The notes under the pieces were generated by a model that saw nothing but the letters and a program-made list of their open reading frames with translations, was not told the DNA's origin and searched no databases. A program made the position numbers and the translations under genes. Below, piece after piece: positions 7,812-28,335 of a stretch of DNA of 64,000 bases. Origin of the DNA: Natronoarchaeum mannanilyticum (GTDB lineage Archaea > Halobacteriota > Halobacteria > Halobacteriales > Natronoarchaeaceae). The DNA lies in the NCBI RefSeq assembly GCF_039522665.1, contig NZ_BAAADV010000004.1:124001-188000 (forward strand), written 5' to 3'. Positions within the stretch are counted from its first letter, which is position 1; the number at the start of each line of letters is the position of its first letter.

Positions 7812-8987
7812 ATGGAGGAGACGAGCGGGCACGACGCCGCGGAGCAAAGTCGTTCGAGAGAGGGCGATGCCCTCTCTCGTGATCACGAACGATCGCAGAG
7901 CGATCGTTCGGACGACTCCGCGAGCCCTGACTCGCAAACTCGTCAGGACACCGGTGAGCGGGGCTCATCGAGCCCTAACTCACAAGCTCAGCAGGATGCC
8001 GCGGAGCAAAGCCCTCGTTCGCAGACTCGTCACCACGCCGAGCGCGTCACCCTCGCACGTTTGCCCTCGGGCGTCGAGGTCGCGACGACCGTCCACCGCT
8101 ACGACGGCGCCGAAGCGGGACCGACGGTGTACGTGCAGGCGGCCCAGCACGGCCGGGAGATCAACGGCTCGGAGGTACTCCGTCGAATCCACGATCGACT
8201 CCGTCGCGACGCGCTCGCGGGGACGGTGATCGCGGTACCCGTCGCGAACCCGCTGACGTTCGATCGCGTCTCCTACACCGCTCCGGCGGCGCTCGACAGC
8301 GTCAACCCGAACATGAACCGCGTCTGGCCGGGCGACCCCTCGGGATCGCTCCACCAGCGGATGGCCGCCCGGCTCTGGGAGTACGCCGGCGACGCCGACG
8401 CGATCGTCGATCTGCACACCGGCAGCCCGGACATGCTTCCGCACGTCGTCTACGCCGAGGGCGACGCCGACGCGCGCTCGCTCGCCGCCGCGTTCGGGAC
8501 CGACCTGCTGCTCGCGGAACCGGCGGGCGACGACGCGCCCGACGAGTGGCGTGCTCGCGGCTTCGACGGCAAGCTCCGCGTCGCGGCGGCCCGCGAGGGG
8601 ATCACCGCGATCACGCCGGAACTGGCCCACAACAAGCAGCTCGTCGATCCCGCCATCGAAACCGGGGTGACCGGCCTGCTGAACGCGCTCCGGCACCTGA
8701 ACGTGCTCCCGGGCGACGTCGAGGACAACGGGACGCCTCGCCGGGCGCGCAACCACCTCGGGAGCGTCGACGCCGAGGCCTCGGGGCTGTTCCGGGTGAC
8801 CGGCGAGTTCGCCGTCGGCGATCGGATCTCCGAGGGGACGACGATCGGGACGGTGTACGACCCGGCGACCTACGAGTCGCTCCAGACTGTCCGGGCCGGC
8901 CAGGACGGTATCCTGTACGCGCTCACGCGCGAGGCGACCGTGACGGCGGGCGACCGGCTCGCGGGGATCGCGCTGGTCGACGGTTAG
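7812..8987 (+). CDS. M14-family zinc hydrolase, succinylglutamate desuccinylase/aspartoacylase-like
   Basis: A 391-residue protein. The catalytic part begins near residue 75 (RVTLARLPSGVEVATTVHRY). Zinc ligands are visible in AAQHGREINGSEVL (His113, Glu116) and IVDLHTG (His202); TPELAHNKQLVD follows, and a C-terminal barrel-like module ends TAGDRLAGIALV. The family removes acyl groups from amino acids; the substrate here is unknown. Residues ~10-72 are an unusual Ser/Gln/Arg-rich insertion made of DNA hairpin repeats, absent from typical family members, and probably disordered. ATG 7812 has AGGAG upstream. The stop overlaps the convergent KaiC-like gene by 4 bases. Confidence 0.82.
   Translation: MEETSGHDAAEQSRSREGDALSRDHERSQSDRSDDSASPDSQTRQDTGERGSSSPNSQAQQDAAEQSPRSQTRHHAERVTLARLPSGVEVATTVHRYDGAEAGPTVYVQAAQHGREINGSEVLRRIHDRLRRDALAGTVIAVPVANPLTFDRVSYTAPAALDSVNPNMNRVWPGDPSGSLHQRMAARLWEYAGDADAIVDLHTGSPDMLPHVVYAEGDADARSLAAAFGTDLLLAEPAGDDAPDEWRARGFDGKLRVAAAREGITAITPELAHNKQLVDPAIETGVTGLLNALRHLNVLPGDVEDNGTPRRARNHLGSVDAEASGLFRVTGEFAVGDRISEGTTIGTVYDPATYESLQTVRAGQDGILYALTREATVTAGDRLAGIALVDG
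7855..7949 (+). repeat. In-frame hairpin repeat element, copy 1 (three hairpins)
   Basis: Inside the M14 gene. Hairpin 1: CGAGAGAGGGC-GAT-GCCCTCTCTCG halves at 7855-7865 and 7869-7879 (11-bp perfect arms). Hairpin 2: arms of 11 bp at 7886-7896 and 7900-7910 around an AGA loop. Hairpin 3: GAGCC followed by CCTGAC (7926-7931), loop TCGCAAACTC, GTCAGG (7942-7947). The third unit encodes SPDSQTRQD. The same second-plus-third architecture occurs in two other genes of the window. Confidence 0.8.
7957..8040 (+). repeat. In-frame hairpin repeat, degenerate copies 2 and 3
   Basis: Two decayed units follow copy 1 in the M14 gene. Copy 2 has GGGCTC-ATC-GAGCCC (7961-7975) and then CTAACTCACAAGCTCAGCAG with imperfect arms, encoding SSPNSQAQQDA. 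Copy 3 (about 8011-8038) is CCCTCGTTCGCAGACTCGTC, encoding SPRSQTRHH. Reading frame relative to the element is the same as copy 1. Confidence 0.65.
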
Positions 8988-10579
8988 AAAATGTTCGCCT
9001 GCCGGTAGACGTTGATCCCCTCGTTGGTGATCTCGTAGGGCTTGGTCTCGCGGGAGTGGTTCGCGTCGCGGATCTTCTGGATCTCGATGGCCAGCCGCGT
9101 CTCCCTGAAATCCGAGGGTCGGACGTACTGGAGGACGAACACGGCGTCGGTCAGGTACTCGACGATGCCGTGCCGGGACGCGAACGCCGAGTCCTCGCTG
9201 GCCTCGCTGGTCAGCAGCGTCGTGACGCCGGCGTCCTTGAGGCTCCGCGTGAAGTCGTAGATCTCGTTGCGCCGCACCGCGCGGTCGTCGTACATCATCT
9301 CCAGGAGCGACACCGAGTCCAGCACCAGCCGCGAGGCGCCGAAGTCGCGGATCAGCCGCGGCAGCTCGCTGCGGATGCTCTGGAGGCTGTTTGCCATCTC
9401 GACGGGATCGATGTCGACGACGGCGAGCTGGCCGTCCGCGGCGTACTCGTCGTAGGCGAACCCCTTCTCGGTCGCGCTGCGGATCACCCGACTGCGGGAC
9501 TCCTCTAAGGTGATGTACACCGCTCGCTCGCCCTGTTCGAGGCCCCGCTCGAGGAACTGGAGCCCGAGCGTCGTCTTCCCGGTGCCGGCGCTGCCGATCG
9601 CGACCATCAGCGACCGCTCGGGGACGCCCCCCTGAATCATCGCGTCGAGCCCCTCGACGCCGAGTTCGATCCGCGGGATCTCCGACTCGTGGGCCTCGTC
9701 CTGCTGCTCGAAGTCCGAGCCGGCGCCGGGCGCCCCCACGTCGTCGAGGTCGCCCAGCGCGCCAGCGTCGTCGGTCGCCATGTCGAACTCGCCGCCACCG
9801 CCGCCGAACTCGCCACTACCGCCGCCGCCGAAGCCGCTACTACCGCTCCCGAAGCCGCCGGACTGTCCGCTACCTGATGGTCCGCCCCCGGGTGATCCCT
9901 TGTCGGACTCGCCGGGCAGATCCGGCGCGTCGCCGAGCGCCGACGCGAAGTCGGTGTCGAAGAGGCCGCCGTCGTCTCCCTGATCGTCGCTCGGTTCACG
10001 CTCGTCCGTGGGCGTGTCGGCGCCCGAGACCTCGGAAGCCGGCCGCCCCGCGTCGGCGTCCGGGGCCTCGGAATCTGGACGCCCCGCGTCTGCGTCCCGA
10101 CGAGCCTGCGAGTCGGGGCTCGAAGCGCTCTGCGCGTCGGCGTCCGCCGGCTCGGCATCGGCGTCCGCCGAGTCCGCGTCCGTCGTCCGGCCTCCATCGA
10201 ACTCGTCGTCCTCGCCGGGTTCCGGCAGGTCGTCGAACGTCGCGTCGTCGTCCGGCTCCGGGAGATCGTCGAACGCGGCGTCGAACTCGCTTCGCTCGTC
10301 GTCGGCGATATCCTCGAACGCCGCCTCCAGGTCGTCGGCGCCCCGATCGGCCGACTCGCTCCGCGCCGCCGCGTCGGGATCCGGTAGCTCGTCGTCGAGG
10401 TCGTCCGGCGCCCATTCGCCGGAGAAAAGGTCTTCCCCGTCCTCTCCGGCGTCGCGGAGCGCCTGCTCGAACCAGTCCTCTTCGGCGTCGCGCCCCCCGT
10501 TCGCGGGCGCTTCGGCGTCGCCTTCTTCGGGAGTCTCGTCGTCCCGCCCCTCCGGATCGTCCGCCCGGTCGTCACTCAC
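8984..10579 (-). CDS. KaiC-like RecA-superfamily ATPase with long acidic N-terminus
   Basis: A 531-residue protein. Residues ~1-270 are acidic low-complexity sequence (repeated [20 protein letters not shown], Gly/Ser-rich [17 protein letters not shown]). The C-terminal ~240 residues are a single KaiC domain: [18 protein letters not shown], Walker [30 protein letters not shown], Walker B-like [29 protein letters not shown], ending YRQANIF. Such proteins bind and hydrolyse ATP and usually act in signal transduction; the partner is unknown. GTG 10579 has GGAGGTG seven bases upstream; the GTG at 10588 overlaps that site and is less likely. A hairpin repeat encoding [10 protein letters not shown] lies in the linker. 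Confidence 0.82.
10096..10135 (-). repeat. In-frame hairpin repeat element in the KaiC-like gene
   Basis: On the coding (minus) strand: short hairpin GCGC-AGA-GCGC (10135-10125), then TTCGAGC, then CCCGAC-(TCGCAGGCTC)-GTCGGG (arms 10117-10112 and 10101-10096). It encodes [13 protein letters not shown]. Compared with the copies in the M14 and DUF255 genes, the loop is conserved while the arms differ with compensating changes. Confidence 0.78.
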
Positions 10580-10906
10580 TCTGCCCACCTCCGGGGAGGG
10601 TGTCGGACCGTCTCGATTTCGGAGTGGGACTCTCGCACCGACTCGGAGCGGCGGCTGGATGCGCGCCGACCCTCGGGCGGGAGTGTTGGCTATCCATGGT
10701 TCGGTGGACGCAGGACCCGCCCGGCGTACTACTCCGGTCGAGCCGTGTGCTACTCAGTAGCCATTCGCCCCAGTCAAATTAAGGTTGCTGCCGGGGTGGT
10801 CGGACGAGCCGCCGCTCCGGGACGTCGCAGTTCGGTCTGCGGCGCCGATCAGCGCCGTCGCGACGCCAACGCGGAGTTTTTCAGCCCCCGGCGCAACGTC
10901 GAACAC
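10580..10906. other. Divergent intergenic region, no gene seen
   Basis: Separates the KaiC-like gene (minus) from NAD kinase (plus). Frames are open on both strands but show no halophilic-type protein. A local AT-richer patch CAGTCAAATTAAGG lies near 10773-10786 and a GAGTTTTT stretch at 10872-10879, about 30 bases before the NAD kinase ATG; either could be a promoter element. Confidence 0.4.
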
Positions 10907-11731
10907 ATGAACGTCGGGATCGTCGGGCAGAAAGGCAACGAGCAGGCCGCCTCGCTGGCCGGCGAGATCGCGGCCACGATCGGGGACGACGGCGTCGAAG
11001 TGCGCCTCGACGAGGCCACGGCGGCGGCGCTCGATCGGCCGGGCGTCGACGTGTCTGCGATGGCCGACTGCGATCTCGTGGTGTCGATCGGCGGCGACGG
11101 GACTTTCCTGTACGCCGCGCGGGGCGCCGGGACGACGCCGATCATGGGCGTCAACCTCGGCGAGGTCGGCTTTCTCAACGCGGTCGCGCCGGTCGACGCC
11201 GTCGACGCCGTCACCGCCGAGGTGGATCACGTCCGCGAGACCGGCGAGGTGCGCTTCCGGGAACTCCCCCGCCTGCGGGCGAGCAACGACGACTGGACCC
11301 TGGAGCCGGCGATCAACGAGGTCGTCGTGCAGGGCCCCCAGCGCGGCCACGGCAACGGCGCCGAGCTCACGGTGCGCGTCGACGGGTCGACCTACTCGAC
11401 GGGCCACGCCGACGGCGTGCTCGTCGCGACGCCGACCGGCTCGACGGCCTACAATCTCAGCGAGGACGGGCCGCTGGTCCATCCCGAAGTGCCGGCGATC
11501 GTCGTCACCGAGATGTGCGGCGCCGAGTCGATGCCGTCGCTCGCGGTCGACGTCGACGCCGACGTCGAGATCGAACTAACCGACGCGCCGAGCGGGTACG
11601 TCATCAGCGACGGACGCACCAGGCGGGAGATCGACTCCGGGACGACCGTCGCGGTCACGGCCGCCGAGGAGCCGGTGCGGATCGCCGGCCCGCGGGCGAA
11701 CTTCTTCGAGGCGCTCGCGAAGCTGCAGTGA
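10907..11731 (+). CDS. nadK: NAD(+) kinase
   Basis: A 274-residue ATP-NAD kinase making NADP from NAD in the cytoplasm. After [20 protein letters not shown] the nucleotide-binding signature [17 protein letters not shown] appears at ~60-76, then [14 protein letters not shown], the conserved AINEVVV, and the [23 protein letters not shown] loop typical of the family. The C-terminus ends [12 protein letters not shown]. The frame is open 162 bases further upstream, but ATG 10907 gives the family's usual N-terminus and length. Confidence 0.95.
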
Positions 11732-11827
11732 TCCGACCGGTGTCGTGACGGGGAGCGCTGGCGGTCGCGCGCGTCGATATTCGCGCTATCGAAAGGCCTA
11801 ATCGCGTACCGTCGTAACGGCGATTCA

Positions 11828-12754
11828 ATGAGTGAGCAACTGCCGGACGTACAGGCGACCAGCCCCGACGTGGCGGTGGGGCTGAACCGCGTGGGAGTCA
11901 CCGGCGTCGAGAAGCTCGTGAAGATCGCCCGGCCCGAGAAGCGTCCGATCGTGCTGATGGCCGAGTTCGAGGTGTTCGTCGACCTGCCCTCCTGGCGCAA
12001 GGGCGCCGACATGAGCCGCAACATGGAGGTCATCGACGAAACCCTCGAAGCCGCCACGCGCGAGGAGGTCCACCGCGTCGAGGACGTCTGCGGCGAGGCC
12101 GCCGAACGGCTGCTCGACAAGCACGACTACACCAGCGAGGCGATCGTCTCGATGGAGGCCGAACTCGTCCAGCGCGAGCAGACGCCCGCCTCCGACCGGG
12201 AAACCCAGAGCACCGTCGACATCCAGGCCAAGGCGACGGCGACGGACGAAGGCACCCGCGAGGAGATCGGCGCCACCGTGACCGGCATGACCGTCTGTCC
12301 GTGCTCACAGGGGATGTCGGAAGCCCGGGCGCGCCAGAAGCTCGAACAGCTCGGCATCGAGGACGAGACGATCGAGGAGTTCCTCGACGAGGTTCCCCAG
12401 CCCGGCCACTCCCAGCGAGGCCACGCCACGCTGACCGTCGAGAGCGACGGCGCACCCGACGTCGATCTCACCAATCTGATCGACGTCGCCCGCGACTCGA
12501 TGAGCGCCCGGATCTACAACCTCGCCAAGCGTCCCGACGAGGACCACATGACCTACCAGTCCCACGCCGACGCCAAGTTCGTCGAGGACTGCGTCCGCGC
12601 GATGGCCGACGGCGTCGTCGACCAGTTCGACCAGCTGCCCGACGATGCCGTCGTCACGATGAAACAGTCCAACGACGAGTCCATCCACCAGCACAACGCT
12701 CACGCCGAGCGACGCGTCGAGATGGAGCAGCTGCGGGAGGAAGTACAGAGCTGA
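11828..12754 (+). CDS. mptA: GTP cyclohydrolase MptA (Fe(II)-dependent)
   Basis: A 308-residue enzyme converting GTP to the 2',3'-cyclic phosphate of dihydroneopterin, the first step of archaeal pterin biosynthesis (in haloarchaea used for folate-type cofactors). The start [20 protein letters not shown], the [21 protein letters not shown] stretch, the Cys-rich [19 protein letters not shown] and [14 protein letters not shown] are family hallmarks (FolE2/MptA type). C-terminal [17 protein letters not shown] is also typical. A single-gene unit about 100 bases after NAD kinase. Confidence 0.93.
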
Positions 12755-12895
12755 GCGCTTGGGGTGGCTCTCTGCGAGCCGACACCGAGATCGTCAGGGC
12801 GTCGGGTCGCAGTCCGCTGATTCTCACTAGTTTTCATCCCGTCAGGAACGATAACTGAAGCTGGCTTTAAATTGTCAAGAATGCGTTGATCACGT

Positions 12896-13288
12896 ATGCC
12901 TTCTGTCGACGTGGTCGAGGAACCGATCCGGGAGCGGGTCGGATCGGACCTCCGCGCGATCATCGCGTACGACGGTCGCGAGTACGACTGCACGCTCCGC
13001 GACGATCTGGCGGAGCAGTACTCCGAGTCGGAGATCAGGCGGATCGTCAACCGGTCGATCGTCATCCAGCTCGGCGTCAGGGACCACCCGTCGAGCCTGA
13101 AGACCGGCGACCTCGACGCCCTCGTCAGGACCTACGAGGACGCCTGGCTCGTCGGTTGTCCGGCGCCGAACCGACGCAAGTCGGGCGTGCTGGTCTCCGT
13201 CGCCCGGAACGGCGGGGACGCCACGTTCGCGGACGTCGACGAATGCGTCCGGGTACTCGAAGACGCCGTCGACGAGGCGATCGCGTAG
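12896..13288 (+). CDS. Conserved haloarchaeal protein (DUF7522-like)
   Basis: A 130-residue protein, MPSVDVVEEPIRERVGSDLR. The order is an N-terminal helix, a strand pair LRAIIAYDGREYDCTLRDDL, a helical middle, then a WLVGCPAPNRRKSGVLVSVA strand pair and a C-terminal helix. This alpha/beta layout matches small haloarchaeal proteins that I recall as DUF7522. No catalytic motif is visible. It stands alone, with AT-richer sequence (TTTAAATTGTC) about 30 bases upstream that may hold the TATA box. Function unknown. Confidence 0.68.
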   Translation: MPSVDVVEEPIRERVGSDLRAIIAYDGREYDCTLRDDLAEQYSESEIRRIVNRSIVIQLGVRDHPSSLKTGDLDALVRTYEDAWLVGCPAPNRRKSGVLVSVARNGGDATFADVDECVRVLEDAVDEAIA

Positions 13289-24478: not shown

Positions 24479-26032
24479 TCAGTTCTCGTCGCGGTACGCC
24501 TGGGCCTGGTCGACCCAGTCCTCCAGGCGACCGACCGGGACGTCCGTCGACTCGGCGATCGCGACGACGTCGGCGTCGGCCAGCTCCTCGACGGAATCGA
24601 TCCCGGCCTCGCGGAGTTCGTCGGCGTAGGTCGGGCCGATGCCGTCGAGCTCCTGCAGGTCCGTGCCGGCGAGTTCGCCGCCGTCCGTCTCGCCGTTCTC
24701 GGCGTCGCTCTCCTCGTCGACACCGGCCTCGTCGCCCGCCACGTCCTCGGCGAGCGCGGCGTCGGCGTCGTCCTCCGTCGTGGCGCTGCCGTCCGATTCT
24801 GCTTCGGCGTCGTCCTCGGTGACGTCGTCGACGATCTCCTCGTCGACGTTCATCTCCCCCGGCTCGGCGGGCTCGTCGTCGACCTCGGCCTCGCCGCGCT
24901 CCTCGATCTCCTCGTCGAAGCGATCCTCGCCGGGGAGGTCCTCCTCGACCTGCGAGCGCTCCTCGAACCACTCGCAGACGTCGGGCCACAGCTCGGCGTG
25001 CGAGCGCGAGGAGACGCTCATCCCGATGTGGCCGGTGCGGAACTCCTTGATCTCGGTGTCGTCGCTCGGGACGACCTCGTTGAACGGCTTGGAGGCCTCC
25101 GGCGGGATCAGGTGGTCGTACTCGGCGACGATGTTGAGCACCGGCATCTCGATCTCGTCGAGGTCGACGTGCTTGCCGTCGAGGTAGAGCTCGTTGTTGT
25201 ACAGCTTGTTCTCCTGGTAGATGTCCTCGATGAACTCCTCGAACGTCTCGCCGGCGACGTCGATGCCGTCGCCGAGCCACTCCTCCATCCGGGCGAAGTT
25301 CTCGACGAAGTCCTCGTCCTCGACGTTGTCGTAGAACCGGACGTACTTGGTGAGGTAGTTCTCGACGGGGTCCATCAGCGCGAAGCCGACGTCGAGGAAG
25401 TCCGAAGGAACGTTGCCGAACGTGTCGGTGACGGCCTCGGGGTCGAAGTACTCCTCGTCGCCCCACATCTCCAGCAGGCCGCCGCTACCGGAGAAACAGA
25501 GTCCGGCGGCCATCAGCCCGAGGTTGCGGACTTTCTCGGGGTGGAGCGCGGCGTACATCACGCTCATCGTCCCGCCCATGCAGTAGCCCAGCAGGTTGAT
25601 GCTGTCCTGCCCCGAGCGCTCGCGGACGACGTCGACGCAGTTGTCGACGTAGCGGTCGACGTAGTCGTGGAGCTGCAGGGACCGATCGAGCTGGGAGGGC
25701 TCGTCCCAGTCGATCAGGTAGACGTCGAAGCCGTTCTCCAAGAGCGTGCGCACGACCGAGCGGTCGGGCTGCAGATCGAGGATGTACGGTCGGTTGATCA
25801 GCGCGTAGACGATGAGGATCGGGACGTCGTGTTGCTCCTCGGTCTGGGACTCGTAGTGGTAGAGCTGGAGCTTGTTCTCCTCGTAGACGACCTCGTGGGG
25901 CGTCTCGCCGACGTCGACCTCCGAGATGGTCTCGTTGGCGTCGGGCGCCGCACCCGATTTCTTGACGACCTCGGCGGCGGACTCCCAGGTCTGGCGCTGG
26001 AGGTCGAGCGTCGCGGTGAATGGGTTCATCAT
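24479..26032 (-). CDS. phaC: Class III polyhydroxyalkanoate synthase subunit PhaC
   Basis: A 517-residue catalytic subunit that polymerises hydroxyacyl-CoA on PHA granules with PhaE. The lipase-like box [13 protein letters not shown] holds the nucleophile Cys151; Asp in [13 protein letters not shown] and His in [10 protein letters not shown] complete the triad. The N-terminus [17 protein letters not shown] resembles those of PhaP and PhaJ. Beyond ~360 there is an acidic low-complexity linker, then an unusual helix-hairpin-helix module at ~458-517 ([37 protein letters not shown]). Third of four pha genes transcribed together. Confidence 0.94.
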
Positions 26033-26054
26033 GTGTGGGAATTTCCGTGGGAGC

Positions 26055-26606
26055 TCACTCTTCGAGGTGCTCGAGCACGCGGTCGAGCTTCCGTTCGACC
26101 TCGTGCTGGCGGCGTTCGAGTTCGACCAGGCGGTCGCCGATCTCCTCGACGTCGCTCTGGGTCGGGATCCGGAGCTGGCGGAGCGTCGCCTCGGCGCTGT
26201 CGTCGGCCATCTGCCGCACTTCCATGGCGTCCTGGACGGTCTCGCCCGTCGCTGCGGCGAACGCGCTCGTGGACATGACCTCCTTGAACGCCTGGTTGGC
26301 GCTGTTGAGCCAGACGTCGCGGAACTCCTCGACGTCGACCTCCTCGCCCTCGGCGGCGTCGGCGGTGCGCTCGACCATCTCCTGGGCGGCGTCCATCCAG
26401 ACCTGGTAGGCCTTGGCGTACCCCTGGACGCCCTCGCCGAGTCGCTCGTCGTCGGCCGACGATTCGAGTGTCTCGGACCAGGACTCGACGAACTCGGCCT
26501 GGGCCTCGACGTTCTGTTCGAGGGCGTCGACGAACTGCTCGTTCATCTCTTCCATGAAGGAAGTCCAATCGTGCTGTGCGGCGTCTGTGGTGGATGAGTC
26601 GTTCAT
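26055..26606 (-). CDS. phaE: PHA synthase subunit PhaE
   Basis: A 183-residue helical, acidic accessory subunit needed for PhaC activity. It is mostly amphipathic helix: [60 protein letters not shown], and a C-terminal coiled coil [20 protein letters not shown]. Length and composition fit haloarchaeal PhaE, and it lies 22 bases before phaC. Confidence 0.9.
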
Positions 26607-26649
26607 TGTCCAAAAATTGCGGCTGCTGTCGGAAAAGCGATTCGCCGAT

Positions 26650-27123
26650 TTACGCGGCGGAGACGTCGATCTCCTCGGCGGCGTCGACGGCGCTGGATTC
26701 GACCTCTTCGTGGGCGTCGAGGAAGGTGTCGAAGGACTCGTCGACGGCGTCGACGTACTCGTCGGCGAACTGCTCGAAGCCGTCGGCGCTCTCGGCGAGC
26801 GCCTCGTGGACGGCCGACCAGGACTCGGCCTGGGCCTCGTCGTAGGCCTCGAACTGCTCGTCGACGAGCTCGCGGGCCTGGTCGAAGTCGACCTCGGCGT
26901 CGGCGGGCGTCGCCTGCTCGACGGCGTCGAAGTAGGCGTGGAGGGCCTCCTTGGTCAGGCGGGCGTTCTGGTCGGCGAGCGACTCGGCGGTTTCGGCGCC
27001 GTCGACCATCGCGTTGACGGCGGCCTTCTGGGCCTCGACGGCCTCGTGGGTGACGTTCTGGGTCTGTTCGAGGGCGGTGCGCTGGAGGTCGAATGCGGTC
27101 TGGATGGGGTTTGCGTTACTCAT
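26650..27123 (-). CDS. phaP: Phasin PhaP (granule-associated protein)
   Basis: A 157-residue amphipathic helical protein expected to coat PHA granules. It starts MSNANPIQTAFDLQRTALEQ and continues as heptad-like helices without cysteines. The gene overlaps the end of phaR by 8 bases and precedes phaE, the phaRPEC order known from Haloferax. ATG 27123 (GGTGAT upstream) is preferred to the in-frame GTG at 27132. Confidence 0.9.
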   Translation of the reverse strand: MSNANPIQTAFDLQRTALEQTQNVTHEAVEAQKAAVNAMVDGAETAESLADQNARLTKEALHAYFDAVEQATPADAEVDFDQARELVDEQFEAYDEAQAESWSAVHEALAESADGFEQFADEYVDAVDESFDTFLDAHEEVESSAVDAAEEIDVSAA

Positions 27124-27421
27124 TGGTATCACCTAGGGGGATGACGATCGTCTGGACGATGTCGCCCTCGTCGATGTCGAGGGCCTCGCGTTCCGCGTCG
27201 GGGATGCTGATCCGCCCGCCGCTCTGCACGCGGGTCTTGAACGTCGCGGTTCCCATCGTCATCGCGGGGAACTGCGAGAGGTTCCCTCCCGCGCCGGCGT
27301 TGGCGGAGAGGAACTGCTTCATCAGCTCCTGCTGACTCTCGACGGCCTGCTCGCCGGCCTCCTGCATCTGCTCTGCGAACAGCGCCGGCGGCCACTGCAT
27401 CCCGCTGGAATCGTCCGTCAT
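27116..27421 (-). CDS. phaR: AbrB-family regulator PhaR
   Basis: A 101-residue regulator. The N-terminal half is helical (ALFAEQMQEAGEQAVESQQE) and may touch the granule or PhaP; the C-terminal ~50 residues are a swapped-hairpin AbrB/SpoVT domain (TFKTRVQSGGRISIPDAERE, ALDIDEGDIVQTIVIPLGDT). In Haloferax mediterranei the equivalent protein represses the phaRP promoter; autoregulation here is inferred. A CTTATTAGC box lies ~27 bases before ATG 27421. Confidence 0.88.
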   Translation of the reverse strand: MTDDSSGMQWPPALFAEQMQEAGEQAVESQQELMKQFLSANAGAGGNLSQFPAMTMGTATFKTRVQSGGRISIPDAEREALDIDEGDIVQTIVIPLGDTNE

Positions 27422-27460
27422 CACTACTGTGTACTCGGCGGGCGCTAATAAGCCTTGCCC

Positions 27461-27492
27461 TCAGATGGTTCTCAATGGTATCAGATGGTATC
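27461..27492. promoter_or_regulatory. Three ATGGT direct repeats at 10-base spacing upstream of phaR
   Basis: ATGGT occurs at 27465, 27475 and 27485, one helical turn apart, within TCAGATGGTT-CTCAATGGTA-TCAGATGGTA. The block lies upstream of the putative phaR TATA box and in the shared region with divergent phaJ. A candidate operator for PhaR or another PHA regulator; no binding data are available here. Confidence 0.45.
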
Positions 27493-27663
27493 GGCTGGAA
27501 CGAGGTCGCTCGGCGCCGATTTCCGGCCGTTCCGCGCGGCGGTGATTCGGCCGATTGCGATTCGGCGTCGATCCGACGTCGGCGCGACGCCGATGTCGGG
27601 CCGACGAACCCGAGCGCTGCCGCGGCCAGAGGACTGATAACCCCTGGGTTGCTTCGGGCGTCT

Positions 27664-28335
27664 ATGTCCGACAACACGACGCCCGCAAATCCGCTGTCGG
27701 CGATGACCGACGCGTGGGTGCAGATGACGCAGACGGCGATCGAGAGCGCGACCGCCGTGAATCGCGCCGCCCTCGGCACCTACCAGGACAGTAACGGCGA
27801 CGACCGCCCGAACGACGCCGTGAGCGACGGGGGCGCCAAAGCCGAGTCGGCGCCGGGCACGGAGCCGAGCGAGCTCCCCTCGCTCGCGTTCGAGGACGCC
27901 GAGTGGTCGTTCGATCGTTCAGCCGAGGATGCCACCGCGCTCGCGGTCGGCGACAGCGTCACGTTCACGAAGCGGATCACCGCCGAAGACGTCGAGCGGT
28001 TCGCCGCGGTCAGCGGCGACACGAATCGCCTGCACCTCGACGACGAGTTCGCCGAGGACTCGCGCTTCGGCGGCCGCATCGCCCACGGGACGCTCGTCTC
28101 GGGACTGATCAGCGCCGCGCTCGCGCGCCTCCCCGGGCTCACGATCTACCTCTCGCAGGATCTGGAGTTCCGCGGTCCGGTCGAGCTCGACGACCGAGTC
28201 AGCGCGGTCGTCGAGATCGTCGAGGATCTGGGCGACGGCCAGTTCCGGCTCGCGACGACGATCGAGAACGCCGAGTCGGGGACGACCGTGATCGACGGCG
28301 AGGCCGTCGTACTGATCGACGAACTACCCGTGTAG
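27664..28335 (+). CDS. phaJ: (R)-specific enoyl-CoA hydratase PhaJ (MaoC-like) with phasin-like N-terminus
   Basis: A 223-residue hot-dog-fold protein that would supply (R)-3-hydroxyacyl-CoA from fatty-acid oxidation to PHA synthase. The hydratase-2 motif is FAAVSGDTNRLHLDDEFA with catalytic Asp and His, followed by GGRIAHGTLVSGLISAAL. The first ~40 residues (NPLSAMTDAWVQMTQTAIES) resemble the N-termini of PhaP and PhaC, suggesting granule targeting. Start ATG 27664; the frame extends upstream without family similarity. Divergent from phaR. Confidence 0.86.
   Translation: MSDNTTPANPLSAMTDAWVQMTQTAIESATAVNRAALGTYQDSNGDDRPNDAVSDGGAKAESAPGTEPSELPSLAFEDAEWSFDRSAEDATALAVGDSVTFTKRITAEDVERFAAVSGDTNRLHLDDEFAEDSRFGGRIAHGTLVSGLISAALARLPGLTIYLSQDLEFRGPVELDDRVSAVVEIVEDLGDGQFRLATTIENAESGTTVIDGEAVVLIDELPV

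Follow-up and report, generated by a model that had tools for sequence, protein, structure and literature searches.

The polyhydroxyalkanoate (PHA) synthase PhaC and the phasin PhaP of haloarchaea share an N-terminal motif, [N/T/S]P-x5-[D/E/N]-x-QR-x2-hydrophobic-E, that is nearly specific to these two families. We describe it from a stretch of 64,000 nucleotides of Natronoarchaeum mannanilyticum (class Halobacteria; contig NZ_BAAADV010000004.1, positions 124,001 to 188,000), hereafter the window. Positions 24479-28335 of the window are a haloarchaeal PHA cluster, in which phaR-phaP-phaE-phaC lie on the minus strand and phaJ, encoding an enoyl-CoA hydratase of the MaoC type, is divergent on the plus strand. 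The two genes with the motif, and its core in each, are as follows.

24479..26032, minus strand: phaC, class III PHA synthase catalytic subunit, 517 amino acids (TIGR01836, 427 bits, above the cut-off of 365)
25994..26026, minus strand: PhaC residues 3-13, the N-P-x5-D-L-Q-R core of the shared motif (conserved columns; pattern match in the source genome)
26650..27123, minus strand: phaP, haloarchaeal phasin, 157 amino acids (AlphaFold2 mean predicted local distance difference test score (pLDDT) 92.8; N-terminus MSNANPIQTAFDLQRTALEQT)
27079..27111, minus strand: PhaP residues 5-15, the N-P-x5-D-L-Q-R core of the shared motif (Q14 and R15 in 88/88 phasins)

The initial annotation of the cluster had proposed one amphipathic N-terminal motif common to PhaC, PhaP and PhaJ as a possible granule-targeting tag. 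Its three N-terminal sequences are correct as written. Its spacing for PhaC and PhaP, NP-x(6)-DLQR, is one residue too long (NP-x(5)-DLQR in both), and the common motif holds for PhaC and PhaP but not for PhaJ, which has a conserved lead of its own.

Distribution and specificity of the shared motif

Two sets of loci were analyzed. For set 1, 145 genomes of the class were searched for the phasin, giving 79 genomes with a match and 80 stretches around the matches; for set 2, named genomes were searched with a PhaC alignment and the best 80 of 510 loci were used. PhaC, PhaP, PhaE, PhaR and PhaJ were extracted by script, with start codons chosen by the script near the aligned start. Rows were left out if the phmmer domain match had an independent E-value above 1e-8 or if there was no start codon near the expected start. 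In the counts for each set, rows with the same first 40 or 45 residues were treated as one, and in a pooled set both were reduced to below 80% identity. Because the two sets overlap in species, the 80% non-redundant figures are the safest.

In the pooled set, P-x7-QR is found near the N-terminus of 48 of the 52 PhaC and 84 of the 88 PhaP proteins; the corresponding counts are 0/47 for PhaE, 1/45 for PhaR and 0/57 for PhaJ. The form P-x5-[DEN]-x-QR was sought within the first 30 amino acids in set 1 and is present in 54 of 58 PhaC and 57 of 71 PhaP, and in none of the PhaE (0/57), PhaR (0/60) or PhaJ (0/45). Set 2 gives 66/75 PhaC and 56/69 PhaP for this form, with 0/71, 0/71 and 0/68 for PhaE, PhaR and PhaJ. 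As a control, 5,660 other ATG or GTG contexts of open frames in set 1, not all of them real genes, yielded four matches, one of which is a phasin that had missed the filter; the Asn-Pro form occurs in none of the 5,660.

A profile built from the PhaC lead gave a similar picture on the 14,481 open reading frames (ORFs) of both sets. The 146 PhaC came first, and ranks 146-276 comprised 130 PhaP and one PhaC. The first match that belongs to no assigned family scores 8.3 bits and also proves to be a phasin, at locus L071, which had missed the E-value filter; the one following scores 7.1 bits (E 3.3). Phasins reach a best E-value of 4.5e-6 and a median of 14.7 bits, and the best scores elsewhere are 6.2 bits for PhaE, 2.8 for PhaR and 0.3 for PhaJ (rank 563). 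Since many of the database entries are phasins and synthases related to one another, the ranks are not independent events, and the weight of this test rests on the E-value and on the gap to the other ORFs. On the control with ORF starts and the profile ranking, we reject a chance likeness of the two leads. In the reverse direction, a PhaP-lead profile scores PhaC at up to 18.5 bits and PhaE at up to 16.7 bits, the latter at the later Ala-Gln part of the helix, which points to some general likeness among these helices.

A search of the source genome for further motif-bearing starts, as the initial annotation had suggested, returned just three proteins with the lead profile at E <= 10: PhaP, PhaC and a distant PhaP paralogue at C1:722706-722798 (all three were rows of the profile). 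Three other matches to the DNA pattern were rejected as not being gene starts, as one match is located 130 residues into a frame, another has an in-frame stop and the third belongs to a frame of 65 amino acids.

A predicted helix with a conserved Gln-Arg pair

Conservation was assessed on alignments that left out PhaC of 350 amino acids or fewer and members of the other families of 90 or fewer. Gln14 and Arg15 are present in 100% and Gln32 in 99% of the 88 non-redundant phasins, the family with the lowest mean conservation of the five in the 80% non-redundant alignment. In a separate alignment of 36 phasins the only invariant columns are Met1, Gln14 and Arg15. The 52 non-redundant PhaC have Pro4 in 100% and Gln12 and Arg13 in 96%. 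Lack of conservation across species had been named beforehand as the result that would speak against a shared N-terminal motif; in PhaC and PhaP the leads are conserved.

The Asn before the Pro is exchangeable for Thr, Ser, Asp and others in haloarchaeal PhaC and PhaP leads, and together with the Pro that follows, this replaceable residue looks like a helix cap; a Pro that opens a helix after N, T or S is a common cap. Over their first 20-30 residues, haloarchaeal PhaC and PhaP can thus be described as having one kind of element: a helix with an [N/T/S]-Pro cap and, on its hydrophobic face, a Gln. An Arg is next to this Gln, and a Glu usually comes four positions after the Arg. The AlphaFold2 models agree on where the helix begins. 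In PhaP, helices are predicted at residues 6-71 and 80-156, the first starting at the conserved Pro, and in PhaC a helix also begins there:

25919..26023, minus strand: PhaC N-terminal helix, residues 4-38, from the conserved Pro (AlphaFold2, block pLDDT 59-67)

The earlier suggestion that PhaC and PhaP have a common N-terminal helix and otherwise different folds is borne out.

"Amphipathic" turned out to be a weak description of this helix. The mean best hydrophobic moment is 0.44 for PhaC and 0.42 for PhaP leads, against 0.38 +/- 0.12 for 426 other N-termini (from open frames of at least 250 amino acids, an imperfect gene set); the leads thus fall at the 67th-77th percentile of this background, and unusually strong amphipathicity was not found. 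In the window proteins, the angle between the Gln and the center of the hydrophobic face is 22 degrees in PhaC and 39 degrees in PhaP; for the Arg it is 122 and 139 degrees. Ordinary moments combined with a Gln on the hydrophobic face favor helix packing over a generic surface-seeking helix, and a polar residue conserved on a face used for packing would suggest a specific helix-helix contact rather than loose adsorption. The invariance of Gln-Arg in phasins likewise looks like specific packing.

These observations bear on the idea of a generic targeting helix, under which PhaC, PhaP and PhaJ would carry one tag and their leads would bind directly to the PHA surface. In its favor, an amphipathic helix can be drawn for the PhaC and PhaP leads, amphipathic helices are the presumed PHA-binding elements of bacterial phasins (PMC5658603, accessible part) and PhaJ1 of Haloferax mediterranei is granule-bound according to the available portion of PMC4823750. 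We nevertheless consider a generic tag unlikely, given the unremarkable moments, the two polar residues that are invariant in phasins and the different motif of PhaJ.

The reading that we favor, tentatively and at somewhat less than an even chance, is that the lead is a portable packing helix that seats PhaC and PhaP in the granule coat, with PhaJ addressed separately. The proteins would enter the coat through helix-helix contacts of like with like (PhaP-PhaP and PhaC-PhaC), and of PhaP with PhaC where both are present, and the synthase would thereby be held within the phasin layer. PhaJ would stand outside the shared helix and use its own conserved lead as a separate anchor.

A known fold for the phasin hairpin was rejected: Foldseek with the hairpin gave a best E-value of 0.056 and nothing at or below 0.001; sequence searches of solved structures with the PhaC and PhaJ profiles left the leads of both uncovered; and a Pfam scan of ten isolated leads gave a single match, PEX14-like, on a PhaP lead (E 0.11).

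The other families of the cluster

The two remaining genes of the minus-strand operon lack the shared motif.

26055..26606, minus strand: phaE, class III synthase subunit, without the shared motif (PF09712, 42 bits)
27116..27424, minus strand: phaR, AbrB-type regulator, without the shared motif (TIGR01439, 22.4 bits, under the cut-off)

PhaE and PhaR had been described as having comparable helices without the Asn-Pro. Both do have conserved N-terminal segments with no conserved Asn-Pro, but each has residues of its own: W14, N32, Q36 and F39 in PhaE and W11, P13 and Q31 in PhaR. The fifth family also has its own lead.

27664..28335, plus strand: phaJ, MaoC-type enoyl-CoA hydratase with an N-terminal lead (PF01575, 74.8 bits against a cut-off of 27, residues 96-187; N-terminus MSDNTTPANPLSAMTDAWVQMTQTA)
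27688..27786, plus strand: PhaJ lead, residues 9-41, with its own motif (W18, then AANRA at 31-35; W18 in 100% and N33 in 96% of 57)

Among the 57 non-redundant PhaJ, the invariant Trp18 and the A-A-N-R-A segment around Asn33 are followed by a linker of variable length. Asn-Pro within the first 30 amino acids occurs in 5 of the 68 PhaJ of set 2 and is local to a few proteins, including that of the window. PhaJ was rejected as a third member of the motif by this rarity, by the absence of P-x7-QR from all 57, by its rank in the PhaC-lead profile and by its differing lead. The source genome has five MaoC matches, and the lead is present on two of them (PhaJ of the window and a protein at C3:209637); two others have no lead, and one (L205, around C1:424351) lies behind a domain that, by eye, we take to be CBS-like repeats. 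A PhaJ-lead profile retrieves just the same two proteins from this genome, both of them rows of the profile, and a weak match at E 2.4.

In Haloferax mediterranei, PhaJ1 belongs to the same kind of cluster and is reported in the accessible part of PMC4823750 to be the sole granule-associated R-hydratase of five, serving PHA mobilization. Its presence on granules makes an anchor role of the separate PhaJ lead plausible, and this lead on its variable linker may be a separate anchor.

A different MaoC arrangement was observed in a two-gene accessory module, in which a MaoC hydratase directly precedes PhaC (L201, a Haloarcula litorea plasmid; L259, a Haloprofundus plasmid; L209 in genome G122; L213 in genome G134). 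These hydratases have a cysteine-containing N-terminal segment that resembles a YHS domain. No phaE was found by the script at L201, L209 or L213, and the annotation of L259 shows none.

Persistence of the motif without a partner

PhaC (E <= 1e-60) was detected in 75 of the 145 genomes and PhaP (E <= 1e-6) in 77. Both are present in 74 genomes, PhaP alone in three (G001, G007 and G099) and PhaC alone in one (G122). In the three genomes with PhaP only, matches to the PhaC profile are confined to its C-terminal helix-hairpin-helix (HHH) end and no PhaE was found; Gln-Arg is kept in one phasin each of G001 and G007 and in three of the four phasins of G099. In G122, where neither PhaE nor PhaP was matched, PhaC still keeps the motif and reads HPFTAPLELQRR. 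Because the motif is kept without a partner in these genomes, it is not only a docking site between PhaC and PhaP or for PhaE, and it seems that neither PhaE nor the other of the two motif proteins is needed to keep it. Judged from these sequences, self-packing, with cross-packing where PhaC and PhaP both occur, would be the simplest reading. A phaR and phaP pair is retained at L071 (G001) and L221 (G007), where the PHA synthase core and PhaE were not found.

Several observations weigh against a packing helix common to PhaC and PhaP. The PhaC helix is predicted at the low pLDDT given above, within a model whose mean is 68.8. Where a partner is missing, a situation limited to four genomes, the motif may have been retained as a relic. 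The leads of PhaC and PhaP from the same genome do not covary: their mean identity is 0.378, against 0.385 +/- 0.006 after permutation (72 pairs; only pairs with Gln-Arg in both could be aligned), the observed mean is equalled or exceeded in 1,761 of 2,000 permutations, and the mean against other leads is 0.083. These data give no positive sign of direct contact between PhaC and PhaP. The missing covariation was also counted in favor of the packing reading.

PhaC has also lost the Gln-Arg in some complete operons in which PhaP retains it, reading YR (L070, L217), QG (L105), TRR (L183), QA (L199), QS (L196), HT (L218) or a shifted QQR (L219); a fixed pairing of PhaC with PhaP is therefore no general rule. 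The accessory synthase WP_004060696.1 of Haloferax mediterranei has QQ; we take it to be PhaC3 from accession order, plasmid and length. Finally, the role of Gln-Arg may lie inside the phasin hairpin itself.

The motif is altered in further synthases. PhaC of L133, a locus from which no PhaP was extracted, reads YR. Accessory PhaC read QC (L213), AHR (L214) and YR (a plasmid copy of Natrinema caseinilyticum), and three divergent PhaC paralogues at L210-L212 lack the motif. Its loss in such synthases suggests that it is probably not needed for catalysis.

The same data speak to a second explanation, that one site on PhaE or PhaR, a third operon protein, would accept this helix from both PhaC and PhaP. 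The adjacency of phaR-phaP-phaE-phaC fits this explanation, the absent covariation would also fit a fixed common target, and a contact of the PhaC N-terminal helix with PhaE is suggested in the accessible part of a 2026 paper (PMC12863089). PhaE as the target is at odds with the motif retained in PhaC of G122 and in PhaP of G001, G007 and G099, where PhaE was not found, and with PhaC3 of Haloferax mediterranei, which has no QR and yet is reported to be functional with PhaE (PMC12863089, same portion). PhaR as the target is compatible with G001 and G007, both of which keep phaR. We regard docking to either protein as quite unlikely.

A third explanation is purely structural: Gln-Arg would stabilize the fold of each protein, and the families would have converged on a favorable way of starting a helix. 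The cap formed by Pro and the residue before it is common, and since PhaP is one hairpin, contacts of Gln14, Arg15 and Gln32 with the second helix are conceivable. The low confidence of the PhaC helix prediction speaks against this explanation. PhaC and PhaP leads are about 38% identical over 17 residues, against a mean of 8% (maximum 41%) between PhaC and windows of other leads, and the PhaE, PhaR and PhaJ leads have not converged on the motif. This structural explanation appears improbable, the least likely of those weighed here.

A possible second shared module and unusual phasins

The synthase has a further module at its other end.

24497..24664, minus strand: PhaC C-terminal HHH, residues 457-512, behind an acidic linker (PF14520, 37 bits)

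It is modeled by AlphaFold2 at a block pLDDT of 87-97 from residue 461 onward. Six phasin paralogues, from one Halalkalicoccus plasmid and five loci in four genomes, combine a P-x5-[D/E]-x-QR start (6/6) with an HHH at the C-terminus.

L263:3001-3999; L264, L265, L266, L065 and L069: phasin paralogues with HHH

Against a profile of the PhaC HHH, those of the phasin paralogues score 52-78 bits, where the lowest of 166 PhaC scores 63.7. Three small acidic HHH proteins score above the phasin paralogues (79-90 bits), and several other HHH proteins lie just under the weakest phasin (50-51 bits), in a search that covered the analyzed loci and is no census. The HHH may stem from a common haloarchaeal pool instead of from PhaC. 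The likeness of the synthase and some phasins at both termini, around different middles, supports portable modules. A broader version of the packing reading can be drawn from it, in which granule proteins are assembled from interchangeable terminal modules: the Gln-Arg helix would zip synthase and phasin into a coat lattice, the C-terminal HHH would link this coat with another partner, either DNA or protein, and PhaJ would arrive through an independent helical address. We consider this version rather unlikely.

Other architectures were observed at these loci. Small proteins at L003 (source genome, C3:241684-245145), L233 and L230 have a short N-terminal hydrophobic stretch, a long acidic linker and a PhaC-like HHH. 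Long phasin-like proteins (L074:6504-7610, L267, L268 and L270-L273) have low-complexity C-terminal parts rich in Gln/Pro or Arg/Gln that are probably disordered, and two of the seven keep QR; at L269 the P-x7-QR helix comes after a long acidic stretch. The Gln-Arg helix is also present on a phasin paralogue at L104 (G029:C1:1668000-1685000, about 8706-13095), which adjoins genes that we named by eye as candidates for an acyl carrier protein, a ketosynthase, an acyltransferase and a FabG-type reductase.

Comparison with known systems

Literature searches and the accessible parts of PMC4823750, PMC5658603, PMC12863089 and PMC7137286 yielded no mention of a motif shared by PhaC and PhaP; subscription papers are mostly outside this coverage, so this is no proof of novelty. 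The role of the N-terminal segment of PHA synthases is still hypothetical in the available part of the 2026 paper (PMC12863089), with granule contact, dimerization and contacts with PhaE or other proteins as suggestions.

The phasin of the window is below the gathering cut-off of the bacterial Phasin_2 family (PF09361; 21.1 against 24.9 bits), and this family has no match in the source genome at E 0.001. Of 13 plasmid-borne examples of bacterial Phasin_2 proteins (PF09361/TIGR01841), 9 have a look-alike, (Q/R)-R-K-(N/D)-hydrophobic-E-A, around residue 36, and 2 have an exact QR there. We rejected an ancient motif common to both groups, as the likeness is apparent to the eye and not significant in profile tests; it is a lead only. 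When haloarchaeal lead profiles were run on eight bacterial phasins (40 tests), the score was reached by at least 0.01 of the shuffles in every test. For the 13 bacterial phasins, a profile of their N-terminal module placed 13 PhaC and 27 PhaP in the top 100 haloarchaeal ORFs, with a best E-value of 0.84 and with relatives that are not independent, and the full bacterial phasin profile gave a best E-value of 0.46, at other regions.

Class III PhaC (TIGR01836) has the catalytic core and the PhaE partner in common with the haloarchaeal form, which differs from its class III relatives by an extra acidic linker and the HHH; P-x7-QR is absent from the bacterial class III PhaC compared (two rhizobial, one from Priestia). 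MaoC-type (R)-specific enoyl-CoA hydratases likewise have the PF01575 domain in common with PhaJ, solved relatives matching from about profile position 75 on, and PhaJ of haloarchaeal pha clusters differs from other MaoC hydratases by its extra conserved lead.

Also among the closest known systems is the maoC-phaR-phaP-phaE-phaC cluster of Haloferax mediterranei, with the gene order and families of the window. PhaP, PhaR and PhaJ1 of this organism are reported on granules (PMC7137286 and PMC4823750, accessible parts), and what these parts name for PhaP is conserved residues and acidic regions, but no motif common with PhaC. A two-residue signature in synthase and phasin makes the N-terminal role open to a simple mutational test in genetically modified archaea such as Haloferax mediterranei, and the lead helices could yield short tags for decorating bioplastic granules.

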